Under the pieces are notes generated by a model that made no database searches, had not been told where the DNA came from, and was given only the letters and a program-made list of their open reading frames with translations. The translations under genes and the position numbers were made by a program. A DNA stretch of 64,000 bases from Archangium lipolyticum (GTDB lineage Bacteria > Myxococcota > Myxococcia > Myxococcales > Myxococcaceae). Where the stretch lies: the NCBI RefSeq assembly GCF_024623785.1, contig NZ_JANKBZ010000002.1, forward strand, positions 682,001 through 746,000, given 5' to 3'. Below are positions 19,990-36,291 of this stretch, one piece after another (the stretch's first letter is position 1; every line of letters starts with the position of its first letter).

Positions 19990-20016
19990 GCCCTGAGCCG
20001 CTCGCTTCCTCAGGGC
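19990..20016 (-). terminator. hairpin at the end of the polyketide operon
   Basis: GCCCTGAG (19990-19997) and CTCAGGGC (20009-20016) form an 8-bp stem; the right arm contains the stop codon of the SDR gene. It has no T tract. It is placed to terminate the 20-34 kb operon, but weak readthrough into the response regulator is possible. Confidence 0.35.
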
Positions 20017-20813
20017 ACCGCCACGGCGCTCCCTCCATCCACGCGCAGCAGCGCCCCGTGGATGTAGTTCGCCAGCGGGCTCGCCAGGAAGGCCACGGCA
20101 TGCGCCACATCCTTCGGCACGCCGATCCGTGCCTGCGGCGTCGGGTAGTACTCCTCGACGAGGTGGTCCTTGACCTCTTCCCAGGTCTTTCCCCAGCCAC
20201 GCTGCACACCCATCATGAACATGTGGGTCTGCATCGACTCGGTCTGGATCAGACCCGGGCTGACCGTGTTCACGGTGATGCCCGAATCGGCCAGCTCGAG
20301 CGCGAGGCTCGCGGTCAGGTGGTTCATGGCCGCCTTGGACGCTCCATAGGCCGCCATGTCCGCGAGCGGGCGGGTCGATACGTTGCTCGAGATCTGGATG
20401 ATGCGTCCGAAGCGAGCCTCCTTCATCGCGGGGACGAGCGCATGGATGAGCTCGATCGAGGCCACGACGTTGATCCGGTAGGTCCGTTGCCACTCCTCGG
20501 GGGGCGGAGTGAACCAGCCAGGCATCGCGAAGCCAGGGGCGTTGTTGACGAGGATGTCCACCCCGCCGAGCCGTTCCCGGGCCTCCGCCGCGAGGCGCCA
20601 TCCCGCCCCCGAAGGCTCGAGGTCGACGACGAGGGGGACGGCCTGACCTCCTGCGTCGTGGATGGATTTGGCGATGGCGTGGACGCGCTCGGCATTGCGG
20701 CCGTGGACGGCCACGGTGGCACCCTCGGCCGCCAGGGTCCGGGCGATCTCCTCGCCAATGCCCATGCTGCTGCCAGTGATGAGGGCGCGTTTGCCCTCGA
20801 GCTCCAGATTCAT
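20010..20813 (-). CDS. short-chain dehydrogenase/reductase (SDR), last gene of the polyketide operon
   Basis: A 267-residue classical SDR: cofactor loop TGSSMGIG, NNAPG, catalytic Ser in QISSNVS and YGASK with the Tyr-Lys pair, then SPGLIQTES. The Arg after the glycine-rich strand (VHGRNAERV) suggests NADPH preference. It is expected to reduce a ketone or oxidise an alcohol, probably as a tailoring step. Start ATG 20813 follows a weak GAGGC. It lies 35 bases downstream of the flavoprotein gene on the same strand. Confidence 0.88.
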   Translation of the reverse strand: MNLELEGKRALITGSSMGIGEEIARTLAAEGATVAVHGRNAERVHAIAKSIHDAGGQAVPLVVDLEPSGAGWRLAAEARERLGGVDILVNNAPGFAMPGWFTPPPEEWQRTYRINVVASIELIHALVPAMKEARFGRIIQISSNVSTRPLADMAAYGASKAAMNHLTASLALELADSGITVNTVSPGLIQTESMQTHMFMMGVQRGWGKTWEEVKDHLVEEYYPTPQARIGVPKDVAHAVAFLASPLANYIHGALLRVDGGSAVAVP

Positions 20814-20848: not shown

Positions 20849-22435
20849 TCAGGCCACCAGGCGCTCGAAGTCGATGCCCAGGTCCTGGCAGAGGATTTGT
20901 GCCGAGGCGCGGCCGCTGCCCGCGCTGATGCTGCCACCCGGGTGGGTGCTCGAGCCGGTCATGTAGAGCCCGTCGATCGGCGTGCGGTACTGGCCCCAAC
21001 CCGGCAGCGGCCGCATGGCCATCGACTGGAAGAGATAGTTGCCGAGGTGGGTCGATTCCCCCTCGATGAAGGCGGCGTTGCGTCGCTCGATCTCCCGCGG
21101 GTTGATGATCTTCCGGTGGATGAGGGTCGACGCGCTCATGTTGGTCGTGTGCCGCTCCAGGTGCGCGAACACCTCGTTGGCCACGTCCATCTCGATTTCA
21201 TCCCACTTCTCCGCTCCTTGCTCGAGGTGATAGGGCGCGTAGCAGTGCAGGTAGCCGGTGTGCTTGCCGGGCGGTGCGCGCGTGGGATCGAACAGCGTCT
21301 GCGTGACCATGGCCGGTACATCCGGCCGGAGCTGGCCGCGCTGGAGATCCTCGAAGTAGCGGCGGAACTCCCTCCGTGTCGCGGGGGAGAACTCGACCAT
21401 GGCGGAGCGATTGACCTCCTCGCCAGCCTTGTAGCGGGGCGCCTCCTGGAGGGCCATGACCTGACAGAAGGACTGGAAGGGATTGATCTTCAGACGGCGC
21501 ACGCGGTGGGGCATCTCGGCGGGCAGCTCCCCGGGCTCGAGCATCCCGAGGAAGAGCTGCTTGACGTTGACACCGGACACCACGGCCCTCCGTGCCGTGA
21601 GCGTCTCGCCCGTCTCGAGCTCCACCCCGGTGGCTCTCCCTCCTCGCACGAGGATCCGCCGCACGCCGCTCCGGGTGCGCACCGTGGCTCCGTGGTCACG
21701 CAGACATTCCGCCAGCTTGTCGACGAGCACCCCGCTTCCCCCCTCGGGCACGCCGATGCCGAAGCGGTGGATGAAGGGGGTGAGCATGTAGAGGTGGCTC
21801 CCCGAGCCCACCTCGTGCGGATCGAAGATGACCTCGCTGGCCTGGCGGGCCATGGCGATCTTGAGCCGGTCATCCTCGAACCACTCGTCGAGTAGCTGCA
21901 TGCCGCTCAGCATCAAGGCATGCATCGTCTCCTGTCCCGCATCGCTCTGGTCGAGCATCGAGAAGAGCTGTCCGGTGGGCGGACAGGCGGAGAACATCGT
22001 GGGCAACATCATCTCCAGCCCGGCCCCCGCCCATGCGCAGAACCGCCTGTAGGCCTCCGCGTCGCGCGCCGAGAACTTCTCTGCGATGGAGGCGCAGGTG
22101 CGATCGATGTCGCGGTAGCAGATGAAGGAGCTGTCGTCGGGAAAGACGACCGAGTAGAGGATGTCCGGGTAGTGGTATTTGAGCCCGTACTTCGACATCA
22201 GCCCGAGCTCGTCGTCGAGGAGGAGCGGGTTGGCCTGGATGGTGATGTGGCAGGTCGACGCGGGGTCGGACTTGAATCCCGGGCCGCACAGCTCGCGAGT
22301 CACGCAGCCGCCACCGAGCCCGCCGCTCTTCTCGAGGACACAGACGTCGAGTCCCGCCCTGGCCAGATAGGCCGCGGTGGTCATGCCGTTGTGGCCAGAG
22401 CCAATGACAATCACATCGTAGGCGGGGTTCTTCAT
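20849..22435 (-). CDS. phytoene-desaturase-like FAD oxidoreductase
   Basis: A 528-residue flavoprotein of the CrtI/COG1233 type. The dinucleotide-binding motif VIVIGSGHNGMTTAAYLARAG at the N-terminus is followed by LEKSGGLGGGCVTREL. The C-terminal FAD motif GLYMTGSSTHPGGSISAGSGR completes the fold. Such proteins desaturate or isomerise polyenes and carotenoids or oxidise related substrates. Here, inside a polyketide operon, oxidation of the polyketide product is the simplest guess. ATG 22435 follows AGGAAGG and overlaps the upstream stop (ATGA), indicating translational coupling. Confidence 0.88.
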   Translation of the reverse strand: MKNPAYDVIVIGSGHNGMTTAAYLARAGLDVCVLEKSGGLGGGCVTRELCGPGFKSDPASTCHITIQANPLLLDDELGLMSKYGLKYHYPDILYSVVFPDDSSFICYRDIDRTCASIAEKFSARDAEAYRRFCAWAGAGLEMMLPTMFSACPPTGQLFSMLDQSDAGQETMHALMLSGMQLLDEWFEDDRLKIAMARQASEVIFDPHEVGSGSHLYMLTPFIHRFGIGVPEGGSGVLVDKLAECLRDHGATVRTRSGVRRILVRGGRATGVELETGETLTARRAVVSGVNVKQLFLGMLEPGELPAEMPHRVRRLKINPFQSFCQVMALQEAPRYKAGEEVNRSAMVEFSPATRREFRRYFEDLQRGQLRPDVPAMVTQTLFDPTRAPPGKHTGYLHCYAPYHLEQGAEKWDEIEMDVANEVFAHLERHTTNMSASTLIHRKIINPREIERRNAAFIEGESTHLGNYLFQSMAMRPLPGWGQYRTPIDGLYMTGSSTHPGGSISAGSGRASAQILCQDLGIDFERLVA

Positions 22436-23772
22436 GGCGCCTTCCTGGTTGCGCCGTCCGTATCCCCCACGTGGTTGTAGGCGGCGGTGATGCCCAGCAT
22501 GGGCCGGATGCTCTCGGGGAGCTGCGGCCCCGCGTAGTAGATGGCGTAGAGGATCTTGTCGAAGAGCACCTGGAAGGAGAGGTTGCTGGACACCAGCTCC
22601 TCGAGCCGCGGGTCGAGGGTGACGGGGAAACCCTTGCGCACCTCGAGGAGGTGGGTCTTCATCCGTTCCCAGACATGGATGACGAGTAACATCTCCATGA
22701 AGTCCGGCCGCTGGAATTGGGGCGGGAAGGGGCTGGGTTGCGACGTCGCTCCATTGTTCTCCGCGATGAGGAAGACGCGCACGGTGTTGACCAGCAGGTT
22801 CAACATGCACAGGAATCCCGTGTAGAACTCCCGGTCACCCGCCAGGTCCCGCATGGGCGTGACGGAATCCACGTCCGCGAAGGTGCCATTGACGAGCACG
22901 TTCTGCGGCTCGATGCACTGCCCGTTCTTGAAATGCTGGGCGTCGCTCGGGAAGTACCCCAGCAGCATCAGCTTCGCGACGAGCTTCAGCCACGAGTCCA
23001 GGACCCATTCGGGAGCCACCTCGTGCTTGAGGGTGTCGTAGATGAGCCGGGTGTTCTGTTGGAAGCCCGCGGTGCTGGTGCGGCTGCTCTCCATGGCCAG
23101 TGCGCCCGCGAAGTGGCTCACACGGGGGAAGGGGGCCTTGGGAAACCAGTAGACGTAGCAGGCCAGCCCGCCCTCCAGCTCGCCCTGGGCTATCTCCAGG
23201 GAGAAGCCGGACAGGAGTGGCAGGAGTCGGGCGCGGAACTCCGCCTCCACTTCAGGGGACCAGCGAATCACCAACAAGGGCACGGGGAGTCCGCCCAGTT
23301 CGCCGAACTTCGCCAGAAAGCCGCTCTGGACTTCCGCGGCCCGCTGGGCCTCGGAGAGGCCTTCCGCGAGCGTCAACGCGCCCGGAATCTTGCGTTCCTG
23401 GATGAGGAAGTACTCCAGCGCGTTCAGCACCGAGTGTCGCTGGTATCGCTCGAAGGGCCGCTCGTGCATGACGTGGAGGAAGGCCTGCTGATCCGCGCAC
23501 CGCAGGTCCCCGCCCTTGATGGCCAGCACGCTGTCTCCAGGCCCGCGTATGTAGAAGGCCCGGAAGTGTCCCGAGGGACGGAAGAGCCTCTCCGTCTCGA
23601 AGGTGTTGTTGGTGGGCGGTATGGGGATTTCCCGCCGCAGATTCTCCAGCTCGGCGGCCACCCAGGGTTCCGTCTCGCGCAGGTGCTTCCACAGCACGGG
23701 GGCGGAGAGGGCCACATCCCAGGCGAGGAGCGAGGCAGGGGCGCTCTGCTTCTTGGCAATGGATGTATTCAT
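22432..23772 (-). CDS. unrecognised 446-residue protein between amidotransferase and flavoprotein
   Basis: I do not recognise a family. The protein is soluble and globular, with no signal peptide. Notable segments are RAFYIRGPGDSVLAIKGGDLR near residue 75, ERPFERYQRHSVLNALEYF, and EPQNVLVNGTFADVDSVTP near residue 290. The last contains an N-x(8)-D-V-D pattern that loosely recalls a kinase or aminoglycoside phosphotransferase catalytic loop; this is speculation. Its start (ATG 23772) overlaps the asnB stop by four bases and its stop overlaps the flavoprotein start by four, so all three proteins are probably made together and used in one step or complex. Confidence 0.8.
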   Translation of the reverse strand: MNTSIAKKQSAPASLLAWDVALSAPVLWKHLRETEPWVAAELENLRREIPIPPTNNTFETERLFRPSGHFRAFYIRGPGDSVLAIKGGDLRCADQQAFLHVMHERPFERYQRHSVLNALEYFLIQERKIPGALTLAEGLSEAQRAAEVQSGFLAKFGELGGLPVPLLVIRWSPEVEAEFRARLLPLLSGFSLEIAQGELEGGLACYVYWFPKAPFPRVSHFAGALAMESSRTSTAGFQQNTRLIYDTLKHEVAPEWVLDSWLKLVAKLMLLGYFPSDAQHFKNGQCIEPQNVLVNGTFADVDSVTPMRDLAGDREFYTGFLCMLNLLVNTVRVFLIAENNGATSQPSPFPPQFQRPDFMEMLLVIHVWERMKTHLLEVRKGFPVTLDPRLEELVSSNLSFQVLFDKILYAIYYAGPQLPESIRPMLGITAAYNHVGDTDGATRKAP

Positions 23773-25709
23773 GTGGTTTGGGGTTGGAGGCCGAACCGCT
23801 GCTGGAGGACACACGCGCTGAGGGCGGACAGGAGGATGGGATCCATCGCGTTCCGGGTGGGAAGGTCCATGCCGGGCAGCCGGTCGAGCAGTGCGAGGAA
23901 CTTCTGGGGGTCATAGAAGGGCAGGGCGCGGAAGGCCGGTCCCCGCAGCGTGTCCTGCACCAGCTCGTAGAACCGGCTCCCCTGCGAGAGGGTCGACGGC
24001 GGCGCCATGAACGGGTGCTTCTGTCTCCGGTAGACGGCATCCGTCAGCACGGGTTTCGCCGCCTCGCGCAGCACGTACTTCTCCGTCGTGCCGCGGATCT
24101 TCTGCGAGATGGGGAAGGTCCGCGCCAGCTCCACCAGGTGATGGTCGAGGAAGGGCAACCGTCCCTCGATGGAGTTGGCCATCTCCATCCGGTCTCCCAG
24201 CAGGCTCAAGACGTAGTTGGGCAGCCCGCACTTGGACCAGAGATAGAGCGACTGGTTGACGGGGGCGCGCCCGGTGAGCTGTCCGCGCACATCCAATCCG
24301 CCGAGGAACAGGCGGTAGGCGTCCCGGCCCGCGAAGTGTGCCGCGAACTGCTGGGAGAAGAGTCCGCGGCCATGGGTCGCGATGTTGGAGAAGCTCGCGA
24401 GGAAGGAGGGGACGAAGCCGAGCACCCGCGAGATGCTGGCGTTCTCCGGGTTGTTCGCGTCGGGCAGCAGGGTGCCACGCGAGACCTGGTTCGCGGCCCG
24501 GAGATCCTCCAGGGCCCGCTCGAGGGCCGCTGGATCCTGCCCCCGCTTGTTGTAGAGCAGCATGTCCCGGCGGAAGTGCGGGTAGCCGGCGAGCACCTCA
24601 TCGGAGCCCTCGCCCGTGAGGACGACCTTGTAGCCCGCCTTCCGCACGGCGCGGCTGAGCATGAACTTGGCGACGCTGTTGGCATTGATGAGGAAGGACT
24701 CCCCGTGCCAGACGGCATCCGCGAAGTGGTCGGCGAGATCCTCCTGGCGCACGGGGATGGGCGTGAAGCTCGCTCCCGCCTTCTTCGCCATCTCCTCCGC
24801 GATGGAGGACTCGTCATATTCGGGGCGGTCGAATCCGAGCGTGAAGGCGTGGATGGGCTTGCTGCATTGCCGCTGCGCCAGGCCCAGGACGGCACACGAG
24901 TCCAGCCCGCCGCTCAGGTAGAGGCCCACGGGAACGTCCGCGTGGAGGCGGAGGCGGATGGCTTCATCCAGGGCCGTGCGGAACCGCTCGACGTAGGTCT
25001 CCGTCTCCTGGGGGGCTGCCTGTGCTTCCTCGGCCGGGTAGTCGAAGTCCCAGTACTTCAGGACCTGGAACTGTCCCTCCGTCGCCAGTCCATAGTGCCC
25101 GGGAGGAATCTGGTGGATGCCCTCGAAGAGGGTCCTGTCCTGGAGCGGGTTGAGCAGGTGGTGGAACTGGAAGACGGACTCATGATCCCACCGGGCGGGC
25201 ACGCCAGCGGCGAACAGGGCCTTGGCCTCCGAGGCGAAATACAGTGTGTCGCCGTGCCGGGCGTAGAAGAGCGGTTTGATGCCGAACCGGTCCCTCGCCA
25301 CGAAGAGCAACCGGTTGCGCTCGTCCCACAGCGCCAGCGAGAACTCGCCCCGAAGGTGGTGGAGGCACTGCGGACCATATTCCTCGTACAGGTGGAGGAC
25401 GATCTCGCTGTCGGAGCGGGTGCGGAAGCGGTGCCCACGTTCTTCCAGCTCACGCCGGATGCGCTGGAAGTCGTAGAGCTCACCATTGACGACCACTCGC
25501 AGGGATTCGTCCTCGTTGGTGAGCGGCTGATCTCCGGTGCTGAGATCGATGATGCTGAGCCGGGCATGCCCCAGCCCGACGCGCCCGTCACCCCGGAGCC
25601 AGTACCGCTGCGCGTCGGGTCCGCGATGGTGAAGGGCACGGGTGGCGCCAGCCAGTACGTCTGGGGAAATGGGCGCTTCCTTGGACAACAGGGCGACGAA
25701 TCCACACAT
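23769..25709 (-). CDS. asnB: glutamine-hydrolysing asparagine-synthetase-type amidotransferase
   Basis: A 646-residue two-domain AsnB. The N-terminal glutaminase is of the Ntn type, with the nucleophile Cys2 (MCGFVALL), HHRGPDAQ, RLSIIDLSTGDQP and NGELYDF. The C-terminal synthetase has the ATP pyrophosphatase loop LYLSGGLDSCAV. It moves ammonia from glutamine to an adenylated carboxylate. In a polyketide operon it resembles OxyD, which supplies the malonamate starter of oxytetracycline; it could equally amidate a finished acid or be a housekeeping enzyme. It is 47 bases downstream of acpS and overlaps the next gene (ATGA). Confidence 0.93.
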   Translation of the reverse strand: MCGFVALLSKEAPISPDVLAGATRALHHRGPDAQRYWLRGDGRVGLGHARLSIIDLSTGDQPLTNEDESLRVVVNGELYDFQRIRRELEERGHRFRTRSDSEIVLHLYEEYGPQCLHHLRGEFSLALWDERNRLLFVARDRFGIKPLFYARHGDTLYFASEAKALFAAGVPARWDHESVFQFHHLLNPLQDRTLFEGIHQIPPGHYGLATEGQFQVLKYWDFDYPAEEAQAAPQETETYVERFRTALDEAIRLRLHADVPVGLYLSGGLDSCAVLGLAQRQCSKPIHAFTLGFDRPEYDESSIAEEMAKKAGASFTPIPVRQEDLADHFADAVWHGESFLINANSVAKFMLSRAVRKAGYKVVLTGEGSDEVLAGYPHFRRDMLLYNKRGQDPAALERALEDLRAANQVSRGTLLPDANNPENASISRVLGFVPSFLASFSNIATHGRGLFSQQFAAHFAGRDAYRLFLGGLDVRGQLTGRAPVNQSLYLWSKCGLPNYVLSLLGDRMEMANSIEGRLPFLDHHLVELARTFPISQKIRGTTEKYVLREAAKPVLTDAVYRRQKHPFMAPPSTLSQGSRFYELVQDTLRGPAFRALPFYDPQKFLALLDRLPGMDLPTRNAMDPILLSALSACVLQQRFGLQPQTT

Positions 25710-25756: not shown

Positions 25757-26221
25757 TCAGAAGGAGAGCGACTCCACCGACTCGCTCTCCTCGGACAGCA
25801 ACTCATCGGCGGCCGAGCGCCTGTTGAACAGCGGGTACTCCATGGGGCTGGGACCCTCGGCGACGACCATGGCCACGGCGAACCCGGCGCTGTGGCTCAA
25901 GCTCAGCTTGAACCGGTGGATGCCGAGCTGCTGGGCGATCTGGTGCGCGGCCCCGGACAGCCGGAGCTCTGGCTTTCCGTCGGGGGCACTGAGCACCTCC
26001 AGCTCGTGCCAGTGCAGTCCCTCGGGAGCCCCGAGCGCCTTGATGACCGCCTCCTTCGCCGCGAAGCGCGCCGCGAAGTGCTGCCCTGGCTGCTTGCGGC
26101 CGCGGCAATACGTCCGCTCCGCCTCCGTGAAGACGCGCTCCTCGAACCGCCCGTCATGCCTTTCCAACGCCTTGGACAGGCGCCCGATCTCGCACAGATC
26201 GATGCCAATGCCGATGACCAT
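25757..26221 (-). CDS. acpS: holo-ACP synthase (AcpS-type phosphopantetheinyl transferase)
   Basis: A 154-residue AcpS: GIDLCEIGRL with Asp8, and ARFAAKEAVIKALG with Glu57, both Mg2+ ligands, then a C-terminal LSLSHSAGFAVA. It transfers 4'-phosphopantetheine from CoA to the serine of ACP. It is about 25-30 residues longer than typical AcpS owing to an acidic, Ser/Glu-rich tail. ATG 26221 follows GGGAG. It lies directly downstream of the cluster ACP, so it probably primes that ACP; it may also be the cell's only AcpS. Confidence 0.92.
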   Translation of the reverse strand: MVIGIGIDLCEIGRLSKALERHDGRFEERVFTEAERTYCRGRKQPGQHFAARFAAKEAVIKALGAPEGLHWHELEVLSAPDGKPELRLSGAAHQIAQQLGIHRFKLSLSHSAGFAVAMVVAEGPSPMEYPLFNRRSAADELLSEESESVESLSF

Positions 26222-26307: not shown

Positions 26308-26544
26308 CTACGGCTGCGCCGACATGAGCGAGTAGAGGTCGCCGACGGTCTTCAGCTTCTTCTCGACCCCGTCGTCGATCTCGACATTGAAAGCCTTCTC
26401 CAGGGCGCTGCAGATCTCGACCATCTCGGTCGAGTCCACATCCAGATCGTCCTTGAGGGAGATCCTGGCGTTGATCTCCTCGATCTTCCGCTCGAGCAGG
26501 TTGGACAGGATGTTGTTGATCTTCGATTCGACTTCTTGCCGCAT
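26308..26544 (-). CDS. acyl carrier protein of the type II polyketide synthase
   Basis: A 78-residue acidic, helical carrier protein. The phosphopantetheine site is Ser38 in LDVDSTEMVEI, the DS(L/T) motif of ACPs. ATG 26544 has GAGGAC upstream. It lies 35 bases after the chain-length-factor gene, the classic KS-alpha/CLF/ACP order of a minimal type II PKS. It carries the growing poly-beta-ketone chain. Confidence 0.93.
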   Translation of the reverse strand: MRQEVESKINNILSNLLERKIEEINARISLKDDLDVDSTEMVEICSALEKAFNVEIDDGVEKKLKTVGDLYSLMSAQP

Positions 26545-26579: not shown

Positions 26580-27827
26580 CTACCTGCCCGAGTCGCGGCG
26601 GATGACCAGCGACGCGTTCATGCCGCCGGAGCCGCGCGAGTTGATCAGGACGGCATCCAGCTGGTTGACCGTGGTGGCCTGGGTGACCACGGACAATCCC
26701 AGACCCGGATCCTGCTGCTTCAGGCCGACCGTGGGCGGGAGCTGGCGGTGCTCGAGAGCCAACGCGCCCCAGGCCGTGTCCAACGCACCGGCCGCCCCAT
26801 ACAGGTGGCCGGTCATGGACTTGGGGGCCGTCACGGGCAGGCGGTGGCAGAGGTCTCCGAACACCTTCTGGATGGCGGTGGCCTCCTGCTGGTCTCCTTC
26901 CCGGGTGGCGAGCCCGTCCGCCAGCAGCAGGTGGATGTCCCTGGGCTCGAGTCCGGCATCCTTCAAGGCACCGGACATGGCGCGCGACAGGCCTCCTTCC
27001 TCGGGCGGGAGCGTGGCCGGGTGGCACGCGTCGCTCGACAGGCCGAAGCCGTCGATCTCCGCGTAGACATGGGCACCGCGCCGCAGGGCGTGCTCCCGCT
27101 CCTCGAGCAGCAGGAAGGTGGCGCCCTCACCCGGCAGCAGGCCCTGCCGCGACACGTCGAACGGGCGGTAGGCCCGGGGCGTGGTGGCGTCCTGGCCTCC
27201 GGCGATGACCCCTTCCGTCACGCAGGCCAGGTAGGCGAAGGGCGTGAGGGGGGCTTCCGCTCCACCCGCGAGGATGATGTCCGCGGCGCCCTGGGCGATC
27301 GTGCGCGCCGCATAGCCGATGCTCACCAGGCCGCTGGCGCGGTCACACACCAGCGTCTTGCTGTGGCCCCGGAGCTCGAACAGGATGGAGATCTGCCCCT
27401 GCGGAGCGGCCGGGAACCAGGCGGTTGCCTGGAAGGGGCTGAGCTCCTTGTAGCCCAGGGTGTGAAGCTTGCGCAGCTCCCGGTCGGTGAAATCCCAGCC
27501 ACCGAGGCAGTTGCCCACGAAGACACCGAAGCGCTCACGGTTGACCTTCTGCAGGTCGACCGAGCCATCCTCCAGCGCGAGCTTCGACGCGGCCACCGAG
27601 TACTGGGTGTACGGATCCAGCTTGCGTGCCAACCGCATGGGCATGAAGTCGGAGGGGGTGAAGGCCTCCAGCGCGCCTCCCTCCCAGCCGGAGCGCTCCG
27701 CCAGCTCGTTGCCGGTGATGGGGCGGATGGATTGCTTGCCAGAGAGGGTGCTGGCCCAGGCGTTGCGCTTGCCGATACCGCCAGGGGTGAGCATTCCAAG
27801 GCCGGTGATGACGACGCGGCGGCTCAT
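26580..27827 (-). CDS. chain-length factor (KS-beta) of type II polyketide synthase, atypical active site
   Basis: A 415-residue ketosynthase-fold protein (VVITGLGMLTPGGIG) that lacks catalytic residues. In TLVCDRASGLVSIG the nucleophile position (Cys in KS, usually Gln in CLF) aligns to Arg163, with a non-aligned Cys161 nearby. The first catalytic His is replaced by Asp304 in LLADGLATREGD. Lys336 and His341 (KSMTGHLYGAAG) remain. This is the profile of a KS-beta partner that sets chain length and forms a heterodimer with KS-alpha. Its ATG overlaps the KS-alpha stop (ATGA). The Arg instead of Gln is unusual. Confidence 0.9.
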   Translation of the reverse strand: MSRRVVITGLGMLTPGGIGKRNAWASTLSGKQSIRPITGNELAERSGWEGGALEAFTPSDFMPMRLARKLDPYTQYSVAASKLALEDGSVDLQKVNRERFGVFVGNCLGGWDFTDRELRKLHTLGYKELSPFQATAWFPAAPQGQISILFELRGHSKTLVCDRASGLVSIGYAARTIAQGAADIILAGGAEAPLTPFAYLACVTEGVIAGGQDATTPRAYRPFDVSRQGLLPGEGATFLLLEEREHALRRGAHVYAEIDGFGLSSDACHPATLPPEEGGLSRAMSGALKDAGLEPRDIHLLLADGLATREGDQQEATAIQKVFGDLCHRLPVTAPKSMTGHLYGAAGALDTAWGALALEHRQLPPTVGLKQQDPGLGLSVVTQATTVNQLDAVLINSRGSGGMNASLVIRRDSGR

Positions 27828-29119
27828 CGCAGACCTCCAACGAAATCAGGGTTCGAGAAGACAACGGCGCTGTGGATGCCAGAGAACCCGCTCGCCTCCT
27901 TGAGGACGACATCGAGCTTCTGCTGGATGCTCTTGTTGGGCACGTAGTGCAGGTCGCAGGCTGGGTCGGGCGTCTCGTAGTTGATCGTCGGAGGCAGCTT
28001 CCCGGTGTGCAGGGCGAGCAGGGCCGAGATGCTCTCGAGGACGTTGGCGGCGGCCAGGGGGTGGCCCACCATGGACTTCAGCGAGCTGACGTGGATCTCA
28101 TAGGCGTGCTTGCCGAGCACCTCCTTGAGCGCCGTCGTCTCGTTGACGTCGTTCTGACGGGTGGAGCTGCCGTGCGCGGAGACGTAGCTGATCTCCCCCG
28201 GGAGGACGCGAGCGTCCTCGAGGGCCGCGCGCAGGGCCCGCGACAGATCGTGGCCGTCCGGCGGCAGGTCCGTCATGTGGAAGGCGTTGTTGCAGGAGCC
28301 GAACCCTCGCACCTCGGCGTAGATGGGGGCGTTGCGCCGCAGGGCGTGCTGGCGCTCCTCGAGGATGAGGATGCCGGCGCCCTCGCCGAGCACGAAGCCG
28401 TCGCGGTCGGCATCGAAGGGGCGCGACGCCTGGTGCGGAGCGGCGTTGCGCTTGCTGGAGAGCGCGCCGACGACGTCGAAGGCTCCCATGGCGATGGGGG
28501 TGATGGGCGCCTCGGCGGCGCCGCAGATCATCACGTCCGCCTCATTCGAGCGGATGCGATCCAGGGAGAACCCGATGGCATCCAACCCCGCGGTGCAGCC
28601 GGTGCTCAGGGTGAAGCAGGGCCCGAAAGCCTTGTACTCGGAGGCGAGCTCCGCCGAGGCCACGTTGAAGGTGGCGCCCTGGTAGAGCCAGCGCTGGGCC
28701 CACGCTCCGTTCAGGGGCGCGGTGCCCCGCTCGGTGAGCACCAGGAACTCCTCCTCCATGAAGCGGGTGCCGCAGATGGCGTTGGCCACGCACACGCCCA
28801 GCCGCTCGTGGTCCAGCTTCTGGAAGTCGAGCTTCGAGTCCCCCGTGGCCATGCGCGCCGCCGCCAGGGCGAACTGGGCATAGCGGTCCATGCGGCGGAT
28901 CTGCTCCTCCCTCAGTCCGAGCTCCCGCGGCCGGAAGTCCTTCACCAGTCCGGCGATCCTGGACCTCAGACCCTCGAGCGGGAACCGGTCCACCTCGAAG
29001 ATGCCGGACCTCCCCTCCAGGGTGTTGCTCCAGAAGTCCTTCAGGCCGATCCCGTTCGGGGCGATGATGCCCATCCCGGTAACGACGACACGTCGCTCTT
29101 TGTTGTTATGTGTTTTCAC
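27824..29119 (-). CDS. ketosynthase alpha subunit of type II polyketide synthase
   Basis: A 431-residue ketosynthase with an intact triad: Cys175 in LSTGCTAGLDAIG, His316 in SAHGSSTRQND, and Lys348/His353 in KSMVGHPLAAAN. The TGCTAGLD active-site context matches KS-alpha of aromatic PKSs more than FabF (NSACST). It condenses malonyl units on the ACP. GTG 29119 (VKTHNNKERRVVVTG) is taken as start, with GGAG upstream; the long open frame beyond is antisense-like shadow of the ketoreductase gene. It overlaps the chain-length-factor start by four bases. Confidence 0.93.
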   Translation of the reverse strand: MKTHNNKERRVVVTGMGIIAPNGIGLKDFWSNTLEGRSGIFEVDRFPLEGLRSRIAGLVKDFRPRELGLREEQIRRMDRYAQFALAAARMATGDSKLDFQKLDHERLGVCVANAICGTRFMEEEFLVLTERGTAPLNGAWAQRWLYQGATFNVASAELASEYKAFGPCFTLSTGCTAGLDAIGFSLDRIRSNEADVMICGAAEAPITPIAMGAFDVVGALSSKRNAAPHQASRPFDADRDGFVLGEGAGILILEERQHALRRNAPIYAEVRGFGSCNNAFHMTDLPPDGHDLSRALRAALEDARVLPGEISYVSAHGSSTRQNDVNETTALKEVLGKHAYEIHVSSLKSMVGHPLAAANVLESISALLALHTGKLPPTINYETPDPACDLHYVPNKSIQQKLDVVLKEASGFSGIHSAVVFSNPDFVGGLR

Positions 29120-29145: not shown

Positions 29146-29937
29146 CTAGTAGTTGCCCAGACCGCCGCAGATGTTGATGGCCTGCGCGGTGATGCCCCTG
29201 GCGTGGTCGGAAGCGAGGTAGGCCACCATGTCCGCCACCTCCTCGGGGGTGATGTAGCGGCCGATGGGAACGCGCTGCTCGATGCGCTTCTTGGCCTCTT
29301 CCACCTGCACGCCCCAGATGCGCGCGTAGTTGCCGCGGACCTTCTCGGCCATCCCGGTCTCCACGAAGCCCGGACACACCGCGTTGACCGTGATGCCCTT
29401 GCTCGCCAGCTCCAGGCCCAGCGACTTGGTGAAGCCCACCACGCCATGCTTGGACGCGCTGTAGGGGGCTCCATGGAGGACGCCCTGCTTGCCGCCCGTC
29501 GAGGCGATGTTGATGATGCTCTGGAGGGAGGGGCTGGCCTTGAGCACCGCCTTGGTGGCGTAGAACACGCTGTTCAGGTTGGTCTCGATGACCTCCCGCC
29601 ACAGCTCATCCTCCACCTCGCTGGTGGTGCCACCGCCGGGGCGGCCCGCGTTGTTGACGAGCACCTCGATGCCACCCAGCGAGGAGACCACGTCGTTCAC
29701 CATCGAGTAGATGGACTGCGGCGAGCGCACGTCGCACTGGGCGATGACCGCCCGGGTGCCGAGCGCGCGAATCTCGGAGGCCACCTCCTCGAGCTGCTCA
29801 CGCGTACGCGCCGTGAGGGCCACGTCGAAGCCATCCTTCGCCAGCCGCAGGGCCGCCGCCCTGCCAATGCCGCGACCCGCCCCCGTCACCAGGGCCCGCT
29901 TCCGGTTGTTGCTCTCGTTCTTGGCCGTCTGCTGCAT
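29146..29937 (-). CDS. ActIII-like C9 polyketide ketoreductase
   Basis: A 263-residue SDR: TGAGRGIG cofactor loop, NNAGRPGGG at 95-103, Ser146, Tyr159 and Lys163 (STGGKQG, PYSASKHG). The polyketide-reductase features NNAGRPGGG, ASTGGKQGV, VCPGFVETGM and the C-terminal CGGLGNY are those I know from actinorhodin ActIII and its relatives. It should use NADPH to reduce one carbonyl (C9 by ActIII numbering) of the nascent aromatic polyketide. It lies 26 bases upstream of KS-alpha. Confidence 0.93.
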   Translation of the reverse strand: MQQTAKNESNNRKRALVTGAGRGIGRAAALRLAKDGFDVALTARTREQLEEVASEIRALGTRAVIAQCDVRSPQSIYSMVNDVVSSLGGIEVLVNNAGRPGGGTTSEVEDELWREVIETNLNSVFYATKAVLKASPSLQSIINIASTGGKQGVLHGAPYSASKHGVVGFTKSLGLELASKGITVNAVCPGFVETGMAEKVRGNYARIWGVQVEEAKKRIEQRVPIGRYITPEEVADMVAYLASDHARGITAQAINICGGLGNY

Positions 29938-29979: not shown

Positions 29980-30939
29980 TCAGGCTGACAGCCGCTTCTG
30001 GATGGCCTGCATGGTTCCGCGGCTGTTGGCGTTGATGGCCTTCTCGACGCGGTCGAGTGCCTCTTGCGCGCTCAGCTCCCCCCAGAACTGCTTCACCTTG
30101 TCGGGCTTGAGCTCGACCAGGTGCCGGGAGGTGACGCGCACGCCGCCGGAGACCGGCTCCAGCAGCCACTCGCCGGTGTGGATCCGGATCAGCGGAGGGG
30201 GCTCGGACTGGAAATAGGAGACACAGGAGGAGGGATTGCAGTGGCGCACGGTGCGGATGCGCTCCTGGCCGGCCTGGGTGGACACGGTCATGATGAACTC
30301 CTGGTTGTGGCCGTCGTCGTAGACCATCTCCACGGAGTGGCAGTGGGGCAGGAGCCTGGGCCACTCGTCCGCGCGCTTCAGCAGCTCGAAGATGGCCTCG
30401 GGCCTGGCGGCGATGACGAGCTGCTCCTCGAACTGTCTGCGCCACGCGTGGGTGGCGCTCTTGCTGGAGTCCCGCTCGAGGTATTCCTTGATGGCGGACA
30501 GCTCACGCTGGCTGTTGGTGTCCACCGAGCGCGTCATGAACTCCAGCGCTTCCTTCGGGTTGGTGACGCCCTGGATGCCATGGTTGGCGTCGAGCTGCTC
30601 CTTGACGTCGAAGCGATGCTCCAGCACCACCAGGGTGCCCTTGCGCAGGGGGAAGAAGTGCCAGACACCTTCCATCCAGCTCAGCAGCGGAGAGGGCTTG
30701 ACCTGCCGGAAGGTGATGACACGCGAGTCGCGGAAGATCTCCCGCCGCGAGCGCCAGGTCATCGGCTGGCCGTTGGCCAGCGCGGTGAGCTCGATGAGCT
30801 GGGAGCGCTCGTCCTGCTCGATGACCCTGGCGGCCTTGCAGGGCGGGAAGATCTGGGGCCAGCGCTCGACCTCGAGGCAGAGCTTGTAGGCGGCCTCGAC
30901 GTCGGCATCGATCTCGATATGGTGTTCCATCAGGTGCAT
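29980..30939 (-). CDS. didomain aromatase/cyclase (SRPBCC)
   Basis: A 319-residue protein made of two START/Bet v1-like domains, about 1-150 (MHLMEHHIEIDADVEAAYKLC, VERWPQIFP) and 165-319 (FEEQLVIAARPEAIFELL, DEWPRLLPHCHSVEMVYDDG). The double SRPBCC layout matches the didomain aromatases of reducing type II PKSs (ActVII/OxyK class), which form and aromatise the first ring after ketoreduction. ATG 30939 follows AGGAGA. It fits functionally with the ketoreductase next to it. Confidence 0.9.
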   Translation of the reverse strand: MHLMEHHIEIDADVEAAYKLCLEVERWPQIFPPCKAARVIEQDERSQLIELTALANGQPMTWRSRREIFRDSRVITFRQVKPSPLLSWMEGVWHFFPLRKGTLVVLEHRFDVKEQLDANHGIQGVTNPKEALEFMTRSVDTNSQRELSAIKEYLERDSSKSATHAWRRQFEEQLVIAARPEAIFELLKRADEWPRLLPHCHSVEMVYDDGHNQEFIMTVSTQAGQERIRTVRHCNPSSCVSYFQSEPPPLIRIHTGEWLLEPVSGGVRVTSRHLVELKPDKVKQFWGELSAQEALDRVEKAINANSRGTMQAIQKRLSA

Positions 30940-30958: not shown

Positions 30959-31822
30959 TCAGACAATCGCCACGACGCGGCACCAGGCCGCGTCGGCACG
31001 CGCCAACTTCACCGGGAAGCACGCCACCTTGAATCCATGGGGCTGGCTGATTCCTCCCAGATTGGCCAGCCGCTCGAGCTGGCAGTACTCGCGCTCCCGG
31101 CCGAAGAGATGGGCGGGCCACAACTCTCCGGGGTCCCGGGTGCGCAGGTAGGCGTTGATCATCCGGGGGAAGGGCGCGTCGAAGCCGAAGCTGTCGATGC
31201 CAATCACCCGGATTCCCTGCTCGATGAGCCAGGCCGTGGCGGCGCGAGTGACACCCCGGAAGTGGGTGAAGTACTCGCGCTTGCCCAGATGGGCATCGCC
31301 GCCGGTGTACAGCAACACCACGTCGAGCGGCTTGAGGCGGTAGTCGATCCGCTCGAGCGCGGCGACCACCTCCTCCTGGGTGACAGGTCCCTGCTCCGCC
31401 GGCCCGCGGACATCCAGCACCACCCCATCGCGCAAGCACCACTCCAGGGGAACCTCGCAGATGGTGCGCGCCTTCTCTCCCTGGGCGTTCTTGTCGCCGT
31501 AGTGGAACGGCGCGTCCATGTGGGTTCCCGTATGGGTCGTCAGGTAGTAGTGCATCAACGACAGACCCTTGCCGTCCGGGAAGTTGCGATGGTCGAGCCC
31601 CTTGCCGAGGTGGTGTTTGAGCCACTCACGGACCGTGGCGAACCAGGAGCCACGCACCGCGTGGATGAGGCCCTTGCCGAGCAGGTCGGCCCCCTTCCGG
31701 TGGTCGATGTATTTGACCGTGACGGGCTCTGGCTCCCAATACTGGGGATCCACGGGGACGCTCAGATCGATGAACCGTTGCGCGGGATTCGCCGCGGAAG
31801 TCTGCGGGGCTCGAGGAGACAT
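30959..31822 (-). CDS. PF04199-type polyketide cyclase / metal-dependent hydrolase
   Basis: A 287-residue member of the kynurenine-formamidase-fold cyclase family. The metal-binding motif HTGTHMDAP (His97, His101, Asp103) is intact and FIDLSVPVDP opens the domain. The family includes the second-ring and later-ring cyclases of aromatic polyketides such as OxyN. It probably catalyses a further aldol or Claisen ring closure. It starts 14 bases downstream of the hydrolase stop. Confidence 0.88.
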   Translation of the reverse strand: MSPRAPQTSAANPAQRFIDLSVPVDPQYWEPEPVTVKYIDHRKGADLLGKGLIHAVRGSWFATVREWLKHHLGKGLDHRNFPDGKGLSLMHYYLTTHTGTHMDAPFHYGDKNAQGEKARTICEVPLEWCLRDGVVLDVRGPAEQGPVTQEEVVAALERIDYRLKPLDVVLLYTGGDAHLGKREYFTHFRGVTRAATAWLIEQGIRVIGIDSFGFDAPFPRMINAYLRTRDPGELWPAHLFGREREYCQLERLANLGGISQPHGFKVACFPVKLARADAAWCRVVAIV

Positions 31823-31836
31823 GGTGGAAAGGCCTT

Positions 31837-33012
31837 TCAGCGTCTGGCGCTGACGGGGAGGGGAGCGGTGGCACCGAGCTTCTGGGCCATCCAGTCGCCG
31901 AAGCGCGGGATGAAGTCCGCGAAGTAGTTGGTGCTCACGTGCCGCTCACGGGGATAGGAGATGAGCTCGAATCCACCCCGGGCCCATTCCTGGAAGCGCT
32001 TGCAGGCGACGAAGGGGAAGACGTTGTCCTGCTCTCCGTGGATGCACAGCAGCGGGGAGGTGAGGGCGGGGGCATCGTTCAGGTGCAACCGCTCATGGGC
32101 CAGGCGGTTCATGGCCTCGTCGTCCTTCTGCTTGAAGACGAAGCGGAAGTCCGTGCGCACCCGGGGGTTGATGCTCAGGTAGTTCTCGAGGTCGAAGGTG
32201 CCGGCCAGATTGATGCAGGCCTTGATCTCCTGGGGGTGGAAGGCGGCCGCCCGGCTGGCCAGATATCCGCCATAGCTCACCCCGAAGATGCCGATCCGGC
32301 TCTGGTCGATGCCGCTGTTGGCGCGCATCTGCCGCAGCACGGCTCCCACCACGTGCTCGAAGTCGGGCGTCAGCGGCTCCACACCGATGAGCTCGCCCTG
32401 ACCGGGGCCATCGAAGAGCATCACCGCCATGCCTCGCGCCAGGAACGTCTGGGCGAACACGAAGAGCTCGACCTCCTTGGCCGAGTCCAGACCATTGACG
32501 AGGATGACGCAGGGGTGGGGGCCCGGGGTGGCCGGGCGCATGAAGTAGGCCGGCAGGGCGTGGCCCTTGTACGCCACCGTGAGCCGCTCCGTGGGGTACT
32601 CCAGATAGGGGATGGCCCGATGGAAGACGCGGGTGACCCACATGCGCGTCTCGCGCTTGAGCGGCGCGTTGTCGAAGTACATGAACTCCGCGAAGTGGCC
32701 GGCGGCTGCGGCCTTGAGCAGCCATTGCCGGGCCGTGAGGTGGTGGCCGGCGGCCAGGGCCTTCTCCGCGGACTGCTCGTAGTCCTTCCCGAGCTTCAGC
32801 CAGCGGTCATGCCAGTCCCGCCAGTCGACCTTGCCCGGGGCACCGGGCTTGAAGCCCTCCAGCGCGATGGTGGTGTCTCCCCAGTCGAGCCCGGCGAAGA
32901 CCAGGCGCGTGAAGAACGCCTCCCAGGCGTGGAAGGCTTCCACGGGAAGGCTCCGGGTCTGCGGGAGCTCGTTGGATACGGACGGGCCAATGTCTTTCGC
33001 CTGGTTCTGCAT
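31837..33012 (-). CDS. alpha/beta hydrolase (FrsA/Ayg1-like)
   Basis: A 391-residue enzyme. An N-terminal helical lid of about 130 residues precedes the alpha/beta core. The nucleophile elbow GVSYGGY contains Ser246; the acid is probably in HGEQDN and the base His in RERHVST. Proteins of this type (Ayg1 in fungal melanin; AntI in the Photorhabdus anthraquinone cluster) shorten or release polyketide chains by retro-Claisen cleavage. That role fits here but is inferred. ATG 33012 (MQNQAKDIG) is chosen over the in-frame extension to 33189, which overlaps the SRPBCC gene. Confidence 0.85.
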   Translation of the reverse strand: MQNQAKDIGPSVSNELPQTRSLPVEAFHAWEAFFTRLVFAGLDWGDTTIALEGFKPGAPGKVDWRDWHDRWLKLGKDYEQSAEKALAAGHHLTARQWLLKAAAAGHFAEFMYFDNAPLKRETRMWVTRVFHRAIPYLEYPTERLTVAYKGHALPAYFMRPATPGPHPCVILVNGLDSAKEVELFVFAQTFLARGMAVMLFDGPGQGELIGVEPLTPDFEHVVGAVLRQMRANSGIDQSRIGIFGVSYGGYLASRAAAFHPQEIKACINLAGTFDLENYLSINPRVRTDFRFVFKQKDDEAMNRLAHERLHLNDAPALTSPLLCIHGEQDNVFPFVACKRFQEWARGGFELISYPRERHVSTNYFADFIPRFGDWMAQKLGATAPLPVSARR

Positions 33013-33049: not shown

Positions 33050-33496
33050 TTACTGGCGCTCGGCCCAGTCCTTGAGGTGCGTGAGCACCTGCGCGGTGTT
33101 GGCGTAGACGTTGCGCCCCAGCTCCTCCTGCGCCTGCGCGGTGGGCTGCGCCGGCTCGAAGGTGTGGATGACCACCAATCTGGAGCCACCCTCGCAGGGC
33201 TCGACGCTCCAGGTGCCGTGCATCCCGGCGAACTGGGGCGGCACGGTGATCATCTTGAACTGGATGTGCTGGCGCTCGTGCGTGTAGTGGCGGTGCGAGC
33301 GGATGGTATTGGTGCCAAAGGCGTTGCGGACCGTCATCTCCATGATGACCTCCCGCGCGTCCGCGCCCACCGCGTTCTGCTTCACCGCCAGACAGGTGGG
33401 GAACACCTGCGGCCAGGACTCCACCTGCGTGCAGCAGCGATAGACGATGTCGGGGGACTGCTTGATGACGATCTCGTTCTTGACGGAGGTTTCCAT
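33050..33496 (-). CDS. single-domain SRPBCC polyketide cyclase/aromatase
   Basis: A 148-residue START-like protein (METSVKNEIVIKQSPDIVYRCC, VESWPQVFPTCLAVK). It resembles monodomain aromatase/cyclases of aromatic PKSs and also one half of the didomain protein in this operon, notably WPQ(V/I)FP. It probably guides cyclisation. ATG 33496 is preferred; the in-frame extension upstream to 33628 covers the 3' end of the membrane-protein gene. Confidence 0.85.
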   Translation of the reverse strand: METSVKNEIVIKQSPDIVYRCCTQVESWPQVFPTCLAVKQNAVGADAREVIMEMTVRNAFGTNTIRSHRHYTHERQHIQFKMITVPPQFAGMHGTWSVEPCEGGSRLVVIHTFEPAQPTAQAQEELGRNVYANTAQVLTHLKDWAERQ

Positions 33497-33587: not shown

Positions 33588-34046
33588 CTACTCGATTCTG
33601 GAAGTCTGACGGGGGATGAGCCTGCCACTCAGATGGAAGCCATCCCGCATCATCAGGGTGAGCAGGTAGATGTTGGTTGCCCCGGCCATGAGCTCCACGA
33701 GCTGGAGCACCATGAACAGAGGGCCGAAGGAGCCACGAAGTGCCAACATGTAGAGCGCGATGGCCAGGGGGGTCAGCACCAGCAATCCGTTGGCGGCGAT
33801 GAACCGCATCCGGGCCTGCTTCTTCTGGATGAGGGCGCTCTCGCGGTTGGCGGCCAGGGAGCGTCCCACCGCCGCCGTCGCGATCATGCAGGGGAACACG
33901 AAGACGAGCGCGTAGGCGATGTAGCGCTTGGCGGCGAGGATCCAGTCCGTCCTGCCAGAGAGCTCGACGATGCTGGAGGTCATGAAGAAGCTCGAGATGA
34001 AGAGGAGCGCGGTCGTGCCGAGGATGGCGTGGATACGGTTCTTCAT
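33588..34046 (-). CDS. small integral membrane protein, start of polyketide operon
   Basis: A 152-residue protein with four hydrophobic helices (ILGTTALLFISSFFMTSSIV, YIAYALVFVFPCMIATAAV, FIAANGLLVLTPLAIALYM, LFMVLQLVELMAGATNIYLLT). I do not recognise a family. It lies 92 bases upstream of the SRPBCC gene on the same strand. It could be part of export or self-protection, but this is only inferred from context. Confidence 0.75.
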   Translation of the reverse strand: MKNRIHAILGTTALLFISSFFMTSSIVELSGRTDWILAAKRYIAYALVFVFPCMIATAAVGRSLAANRESALIQKKQARMRFIAANGLLVLTPLAIALYMLALRGSFGPLFMVLQLVELMAGATNIYLLTLMMRDGFHLSGRLIPRQTSRIE

Positions 34047-35778: not shown

Positions 35779-36291
35779 ATGTGGCACGACAAGGAGATTC
35801 GGCGACCCGCTCGATTGGCGCCATCGGAGCGACCGGGCATCATCGGTGTGGAGGACGCCGTGGAACTGAACGACCAGCTTGGATACAACCTCTACCGCGC
35901 AGCGCTCCTGTTCCGTCGAGAGCTCATCCGGGCCCTGAGGGAGCACGACCTCACGCCCGAGCAGTGGCAGACCCTTGCCTCCCTCTGGGCGCACGGTCCG
36001 CTGTCTCCCTCGGAGATCGCTCGCGTGACCCTGCAGGATCTACCTTCCATCTCCCGGATGCTCTCCCGCATGGAGAAGCGAGGGTGGGTGGGGAGGGTGG
36101 AGGACCCGAAGGACGGGCGGTCGTTCCGCGTGGAGCTCACGCAGGAGGGGAGTCAGCTGCAGACCATTCTGCCTCCCCTCATCTTCGAGCACTTCGAGGG
36201 GGTGCTCGACGGGTTCCCCGAGGCGCGTCGCAGGAAGCTCCTGGAGCTTCTCCGGGAGCTCCGGCAGGTGCTGGGAGATCCAACCCCCTGA
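35779..36291 (+). CDS. MarR-family transcriptional regulator
   Basis: A 170-residue winged-helix regulator: TPEQWQTLASLWAHGPLSPSEIARVTLQDLPSISRML is the recognition region, followed by the wing VEDPKDGRSFRVELT. MarR proteins are usually repressors released by phenolic or aromatic ligands or by oxidation. It is divergent from doxX-cytochrome c. The operator palindromes between them and ahead of the polyketide operon suggest that it controls both. The start is uncertain: ATG 35779, or GTG 35848 or later. Confidence 0.88.
   Translation: MWHDKEIRRPARLAPSERPGIIGVEDAVELNDQLGYNLYRAALLFRRELIRALREHDLTPEQWQTLASLWAHGPLSPSEIARVTLQDLPSISRMLSRMEKRGWVGRVEDPKDGRSFRVELTQEGSQLQTILPPLIFEHFEGVLDGFPEARRRKLLELLRELRQVLGDPTP

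Follow-up and report, generated by a model that had tools for sequence, protein, structure and literature searches.

A putative AntI-type hydrolase lacking the AntI gate and paired with a cyclase in a type II polyketide operon of Archangium lipolyticum

The window analyzed in this study, a 64,000-nucleotide stretch of the Archangium lipolyticum genome, carries a type II polyketide synthase (PKS) operon in which an alpha/beta-hydrolase gene (HYD; 31837..33012, minus strand) lies between two cyclase genes. The locus raises the question of what such a hydrolase does to the polyketide. Among the papers considered, experiments demonstrate chain trimming in bacterial type II polyketide biosynthesis only for AQ-256 of Photorhabdus, where the enzyme is AntI. 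The source genome measures 12.6 Mb and belongs to the same family as Pyxidicoccus fallax, a species whose own hydrolases are considered below.

The open reading frame of HYD translates into 391 aa plus a stop codon; an AGGAG box precedes its start codon, the ATG at 33012. A longer version beginning at the GTG at 33189 is unlikely, because it runs into the upstream cyclase gene. The position-specific GC content (0.65/0.44/0.91) indicates a real gene. HYD is 95% identical to the copy in a congener (G065), which carries the same operon; the values obtained by simple counting (dN 0.024, dS 0.128) indicate that the gene is under purifying selection. The motif GVSYGG places the nucleophile at Ser246, which fits a triad with Asp329 and His358; a GLDS loop occupies residues 174-177. 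In the AlphaFold model (mean pLDDT 90.6), residues 24-136 form a helical N-domain and residues 141-379 an alpha/beta-hydrolase core. The translation, the motif, and the modeled domains therefore confirm the lid-plus-core hydrolase with a Ser246 nucleophile that an earlier sequence-only reading had described.

HYD is the third of 14 unbroken minus-strand genes between 34046 and 20010; neighboring genes are never more than 91 bp apart, and 4-bp overlaps occur three times. It is preceded by MEM152 (33588..34046), a 152-aa protein with the look of a membrane protein and no Pfam match, and by CYC1 (33050..33496), a single-domain SRPBCC polyketide cyclase. It is followed by a PF04199 putative cyclase (CYC; 30959..31822), a didomain aromatase/cyclase (ARO/CYC; 29980..30939), an SDR-type ketoreductase (KR; 29146..29937), ketosynthase alpha (KSa; 27824..29119), the chain length factor or KS beta (CLF; 26580..27827), an acyl carrier protein (ACP; 26308..26544), and an AcpS-type phosphopantetheinyl transferase (25757..26221). 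The remaining genes encode an asparagine-synthase-like glutamine amidotransferase with Asn_synthase and GATase_7 matches (ASN; 23769..25709), a 446-aa protein without a Pfam match (X446; 22432..23772), a phytoene-desaturase-like FAD oxidoreductase (20849..22435), and a second SDR oxidoreductase (20010..20813). KSa, CLF, ACP, KR, and ARO/CYC are thus all encoded in the same operon as HYD.

The operon is predicted to make an aromatic compound that probably contains nitrogen. The top PDB match of ARO/CYC is BexL, which we take to suggest a reducing-type pathway. The PDB search with CLF returned mostly FabF matches, plus the actinorhodin and AntDE proteins. CLF is 61% identical to its counterpart in P. 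fallax, and pyxidicyclines are called nonaketide-derived (PMC12386333); this relation only suggests a nonaketide chain for the operon.

The PDB sequence search with HYD identified AntI as the best match (E-value 6.7e-49), followed by DHPONH (1.5e-45), Wdyg1p (2e-20), FrsA (1.2e-13), and Ayg1 (6.8e-10). The structural comparison with AntI that the sequence-only reading had proposed as a check also yielded AntI as the closest structure: in VIA-align, the HYD model matched 6hxa with a Z of 47.3 and 1.9 A over 357 residues, and the values for DHPONH, Ayg1p, FrsA, and Wdyg1p were 44.3, 38.1, 38.0, and 37.5. This fold match is not independent of the sequence match, because the alignment from which the model was built contained Photorhabdus AntI rows. 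HYD and AntI are only 29% identical, and DHPONH (2jbw) scored close to AntI both by sequence and by fold; both points count against reading HYD as an AntI-type lyase. DHPONH and FrsA, which are not known from polyketide pathways, share the fold of HYD but fall outside the PKS-linked branch described below.

Relatives of HYD at E <= 1e-60 were found in 4 of 195 Myxococcota genomes, namely its own, that of the congener, that of P. fallax (G115), and that of a congener of P. fallax (G132). GTDB contigs were also scanned with a single degenerate pattern, which yielded 38 loci of relatives; KSa and CLF matches occurred together in 15 of them: Nonomuraea typhae, Herbihabitans rhizosphaerae, Zooshikella harenae, P. 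fallax, Mixta theicola, a Cellvibrionaceae MAG, a Richelia MAG, and eight Photorhabdus. The pair was absent from the other 23 loci, some of which are on short contigs (5.0 kb for L035 and 3.5 kb for L037). On viral contigs, no relative of HYD was confirmed.

In the first tree (34 rows), HYD and AntI fell into a branch of 16 proteins with a support of 98/99, and HYD shared no such branch with Wdyg1p or with 2jbw; DHPONH, FrsA, and Wdyg1p were all outside it. Wdyg1p forms a long branch whose exact place is unsure, and Ayg1 itself was not among the rows. A second tree, to which seven actinobacterial rows were added and from which the PDB rows were removed, recovered the identical 16 rows with a support of 100/99. 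These rows are the window protein, that of the congener, five further myxobacterial copies, two actinobacterial proteins, and those of Zooshikella, Mixta, the Cellvibrionaceae MAG, and four Photorhabdus. Type II PKS genes lie near 15 of the 16, and the rows labeled PKS-linked include one whose contig has no PKS match (L021) and one that lies past its cluster's AcpS gene by about 4.6 kb (G132_2). Of the 15 loci with KSa and CLF, 11 were represented in the tree, and all but one of these 11 lay on the AntI branch. The exception was the Richelia protein (L028), which adjoins PKS genes and fell outside the branch in both trees; forcing it inside was not rejected (AU p 0.349). These findings suggest that the AntI branch extends to Myxococcota and Actinomycetota and to Gammaproteobacteria other than Photorhabdus. 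The closest relatives of HYD are therefore not unrelated esterases, the outcome that would have spoken against the sequence-only reading.

The Photorhabdus AntI of the AQ-256 pathway (6hxa, 8qbh) has the fold, the Ser/Asp/His residues, the GLDS loop, and an equivalent of Arg24 in common with HYD, and the Photorhabdus ant loci have KR, the didomain ARO/CYC, CYC, KSa, and CLF in common with the operon. The amidotransferase, CYC1, and the FAD oxidoreductase are extras of the operon, whereas AntG, an acyl-ACP ligase encoded in the ant cluster, is without a counterpart; no AMP-binding match was found across the 14 genes. By sequence alignment, HYD keeps the equivalents of Ser245, His355, Asp326, the GLDS loop, and Arg24 of PlAntI. 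The GLDS loop and Arg24 were considered as diagnostic marks and rejected, because they are also present in relatives without a PKS.

Another difference concerns the gate of PlAntI, formed by Tyr20, Arg282, and Asp327 and missing in HYD, in which the alignment gives A32, P283, and N330 at these positions; the match to Arg282 rests on alignment in a variable loop, and HYD has an arginine one position on. Among the 25 rows listed, the full gate was found in six, those of four Photorhabdus, Mixta, and the Cellvibrionaceae MAG. The D327A variant of PlAntI is reported to still make AQ-256, with approximately 30% octaketide shunts (PMC11165489), so loss of the gate need not stop trimming.

The gene next to HYD offers a possible substitute for the gate. 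CYC1 ends 37 bp before the start of HYD, and in Nonomuraea typhae (L022) and Herbihabitans rhizosphaerae (L023), the counterparts of CYC1 and HYD form a single reading frame of more than 520 residues. CYC1 is 38% and 40% identical to the front part of the respective fused proteins; in Pfam, the Polyketide_cyc2 match of this part scored 46.2 bits in Nonomuraea, which exceeds the cut-off, but 22.4 bits in Herbihabitans, short of the 27.4 bits required. The fusion is good evidence that CYC1 and HYD act together. The hydrolase parts of the two proteins are 52% and 49% identical to HYD, and the two clusters have CYC1, MEM152, the FAD oxidoreductase, and MarR relatives in common with the window; carboxylase-like genes, predicted from sequence, are their own, and their fetched flanks contain no amidotransferase match. 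A search for further fusions in 250 and 297 genomes of two actinobacterial families revealed nothing above 40% identity except the two known hits. Seventeen other hits were at 32-40%, and two of them (L093 and L094) were checked for PKS genes and had none. Loss of the gate and presence of CYC1 are not coupled everywhere, because the Zooshikella protein (L024) lacks Arg282 and Asp327 and also lacks an adjoining CYC1 match. The intact second copies in P. fallax and G132 are likewise ungated and without an adjacent CYC1.

The published work on AntI provides a template for the function of HYD. PlAntI is reported to cut the C2''-C3'' bond, free acetyl-ACP, leave a C14 ester on Ser245, and close the ring in a shut state (PMC11165489). 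In the same report, the S245A and H355A variants yield octaketide shunts, and the mechanism favored is the one that releases acetyl-ACP; deletion of antI is described as leading to aloesaponarin II and DMAC (PMC6638757). The best reading of our data, which we hold with moderate confidence, is that HYD is an AntI-type serine lyase that trims an ACP-bound, cyclized chain. HYD would work on the cyclized chain while it is still attached to the ACP of the operon, and Ser246, assisted by His358, would attack the chain, bound as a thioester, at its beta-keto carbon. Acetyl-ACP would then be freed by a retro-Claisen cut, release and two-carbon shortening would be simultaneous, and the shortened chain would stay as an ester on Ser246. 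This ester would be resolved with the help of CYC1 or by water, because the gate residues proposed to serve the self-contained ring closure of PlAntI are missing in HYD. We infer the substrate, the position of the cut, the partner role of CYC1, and the role of the amidotransferase, which would act elsewhere on the molecule, either by providing an amide-bearing starter or by later amidation. A product length predicted from CLF alone may be two carbons too long.

The sequence-only reading had proposed that an Ayg1/AntI-like hydrolase cleaves an acyl unit from an aromatic polyketide. This reading is partly supported: HYD belongs to the AntI branch and sits in a type II PKS operon, and trimming of its chain is probable by homology. 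A cut from a finished aromatic is less likely than cleavage on the carrier. The likeness holds for AntI and is looser for Ayg1 and Wdyg1p, which are weaker matches than DHPONH, with Wdyg1p off the branch.

The strongest competitor of the trimming reading, which we regard as possible but doubtful, is that HYD is a discrete off-loading thioesterase, which would hydrolyze the thioester and release a full-length polyketide acid, perhaps amidated by ASN, with no C-C cut. The Ser-His-Asp machinery that such an enzyme needs is present, Pfam recognizes no other release enzyme among the 14 operon genes, and an asparagine-synthase-like enzyme could use a free acid directly; the gate that favors ring closure is missing, so access of water is plausible. 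However, HYD groups with AntI in trees whose rows include no type II thioesterases, and AntI, Afyg1p, and Wdyg1p, which have the same fold, are all described as cutting C-C bonds on polyketides (PMC11165489).

It is unlikely that HYD works in the manner of Ayg1, by taking an acyl side chain off an aromatic product that has already been completed and released. The fungal DHN-melanin enzymes Ayg1p and Wdyg1p have the two-domain fold (Z 38.1 and 37.5) and a catalytic serine in common with HYD; they are reported to act on released naphthyl compounds and to function in an open state (PMC11165489), which would suit a protein without the AntI gate. Nevertheless, they are only 20-22% identical to HYD, and the long branch of Wdyg1p, a weaker match than DHPONH, lies outside that of HYD. 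The fusion to an SRPBCC cyclase in relatives also points to an ACP-bound intermediate. We rejected this mode as the best reading on the basis of the tree position and the operon context, which make on-carrier cleavage of the AntI type the likelier of the two.

That HYD is an unrelated esterase or a self-protection hydrolase in the operon by chance is highly improbable: its top Pfam match is the general FrsA-like family, but the linkage to type II PKS genes extends across several phyla with the same operon position in related clusters, the trees set HYD apart from relatives without PKS genes, and of the two actinobacterial homologues (37-39%; L093 and L094) with no cluster-gene match in the 19-20 kb around them, the one placed (that of L093, from G201; row L082) fell outside the AntI branch.

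The sequence-only reading had called the pairing of HYD with an amidotransferase unusual, and the frequency data bear this out, with the pairing found only in the window and in the congener. With the amidotransferase as query, no match at E <= 1e-6 was obtained in the 38 loci of relatives (flanks of up to 10 kb, on some short contigs) or among the genes called in L014 and L016-L020. The pairing is odd in frequency, yet it presents no chemical contradiction. Because the published AntI mechanism places the cleavage at the end attached to the carrier protein, the trimmed chain would keep an amide located at the starter end. OxyD supplies such an amide-bearing starter in oxytetracycline. For ASN, provision of an amide-bearing starter and late amidation are equally possible. 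A second amidotransferase copy, 54% identical, lies approximately 17.6 kb before the start of the window (7496-9421 in L074; G000:C2:662505-664421), and no other cluster-gene match was found in the 20 kb fetched around it.

The myxobacterial paralogues revealed a different fate of the active site. The operons of P. fallax and G132 have the order of the window (hydrolase, CYC, ARO/CYC, KR, KSa, CLF, ACP, and AcpS), with a KSa identity of 67%, but the hydrolase at this position has GLGHGG in place of GxSxG, with Gly for Ser, and lacks the catalytic His. In the window genome, a hydrolase copy on contig C57 adjoins a second type II PKS and carries GLAHGG, in which Ser is changed to Ala and the His is kept. 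The three nucleophile-less copies form one branch (100/100). P. fallax and G132 each have one extra copy with Ser and His intact, which in P. fallax is on another contig. Because the nucleophile has been lost in paralogues on the AntI branch, membership of the branch alone is no proof of catalysis. Between P. fallax and G132, the nucleophile-less operon hydrolases gave a dN of 0.17 and a dS of 0.365 (simple counting, one species pair), and dN and dS, respectively, were 0.067/0.325 for KSa, 0.069/0.300 for CLF, 0.071/0.304 for CYC, and 0.069/0.248 for the intact second copy. The dN of the dead copies is approximately 2.4 times that of their neighbors (0.17 vs 0.067-0.071), so these copies may equally be decaying or have taken on a new role. 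Among the literature matches listed, no nucleophile-less or cyclase-fused relative of AntI appeared; "AntI" is inseparable from "anti" in such a search, and this is weak evidence of absence.

Two side observations concern these paralogues. A divergent multicopper oxidase gene adjoins the intact copy in G132 (L016, 16235-19158) and in P. fallax (L019, 2-2556), which recalls the co-occurrence of ayg1 and abr1 in the fungal melanin cluster (PMC11165489). Adjoining the G132 cluster (L016, 2878-6051), fused proteins combine an AMP-binding domain with an SRPBCC cyclase and a muconolactone-isomerase-like domain with SRPBCC.

We take P. fallax DSM 14698 to be the pyxidicycline producer An d48, and its type II PKS cluster is probably the pyxidicycline cluster. 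KSa matches at E <= 1e-60 in this genome were found on C21 (two, a KSa/CLF pair), C60 (two), C111 (one), and C117 (one); C60 was set aside as the pyxidicycline cluster because its genes look aryl-polyene-like. Among the genes called around the P. fallax cluster, no homologue of the window's amidotransferase was found. A pentapeptide-repeat gene lies approximately 8.7 kb before the C21 hydrolase, and pyxidicyclines are described as discovered in P. fallax with pentapeptide-repeat genes as a guide (PMC8222398) and as containing nitrogen (PMC9231227). In the window genome, none of 11 pentapeptide-repeat matches lay inside the window, and the closest on the same contig (G000:C2:565647) was about 116 kb before it.

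A wider reading of the branch, which is speculative and rather improbable as a whole, would distinguish three modes. The first would be gated and self-sufficient, as in Photorhabdus, Mixta, and Cellvibrionaceae. In the second, an ungated hydrolase would rely on a separate or fused SRPBCC cyclase for ring closure (the window, its congener, Nonomuraea, and Herbihabitans). The third would comprise nucleophile-less scaffolds beside a type II PKS (P. fallax, G132, and the second PKS of the window genome), and the chain, untrimmed by that protein, would stay carrier-bound for long enough to take up ammonia and give nitrogen-containing rings such as those of pyxidicyclines. In Photorhabdus with AntI blocked, shunts are reported to arise via assimilation of NH3 into the ACP-bound octaketide (PMC12186476). 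If this reading were true, the loss of one serine would serve in nature to switch a pathway between trimmed aromatic polyketides and nitrogenous ones.

The known kind to which HYD corresponds is AntI, and what differs here is the missing gate, the CYC1 partner or fusion, and the nucleophile-less copies in related clusters. The HYD locus and its relatives suggest that ring closure can pass to a partner cyclase and that some members of the AntI branch have no nucleophile. Operons whose ketosynthases are related and whose hydrolase, at one and the same position, is either live or dead offer a direct test of the effect of this protein on the length and nitrogen content of the product.

Further observations concern the second PKS of the window genome and two genes in and near the operon. 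The second cluster (8599-19600 in L014; G000:C57) encodes TcmI-, cupin-, and ABM-type cyclases or oxygenases, and its gene order resembles that reported for the aggregicyclin cluster acyA-K (PMC13213394); at E <= 1e-130, its KSa had no other relative across the 195 Myxococcota genomes. A MarR-type regulator gene at 35848-36291 has relatives at 35-39% identity that adjoin the MEM152 gene in the Nonomuraea and Herbihabitans clusters, and it is a likely regulator of the cluster. X446 is missing from the otherwise collinear cluster of the congener, and matches to it were found in 8 of 195 Myxococcota genomes; its single-sequence structure model (pLDDT 36.4) was too low in confidence for use. The X446 matches at 65-69% in G061-G063 and G093 lie within open frames of approximately 1500 residues, and in the one frame examined (L076), the X446-like part, placed by arithmetic, comes directly behind AMP-binding and carrier-protein domains, suggesting that X446 may act on carrier-bound substrates.
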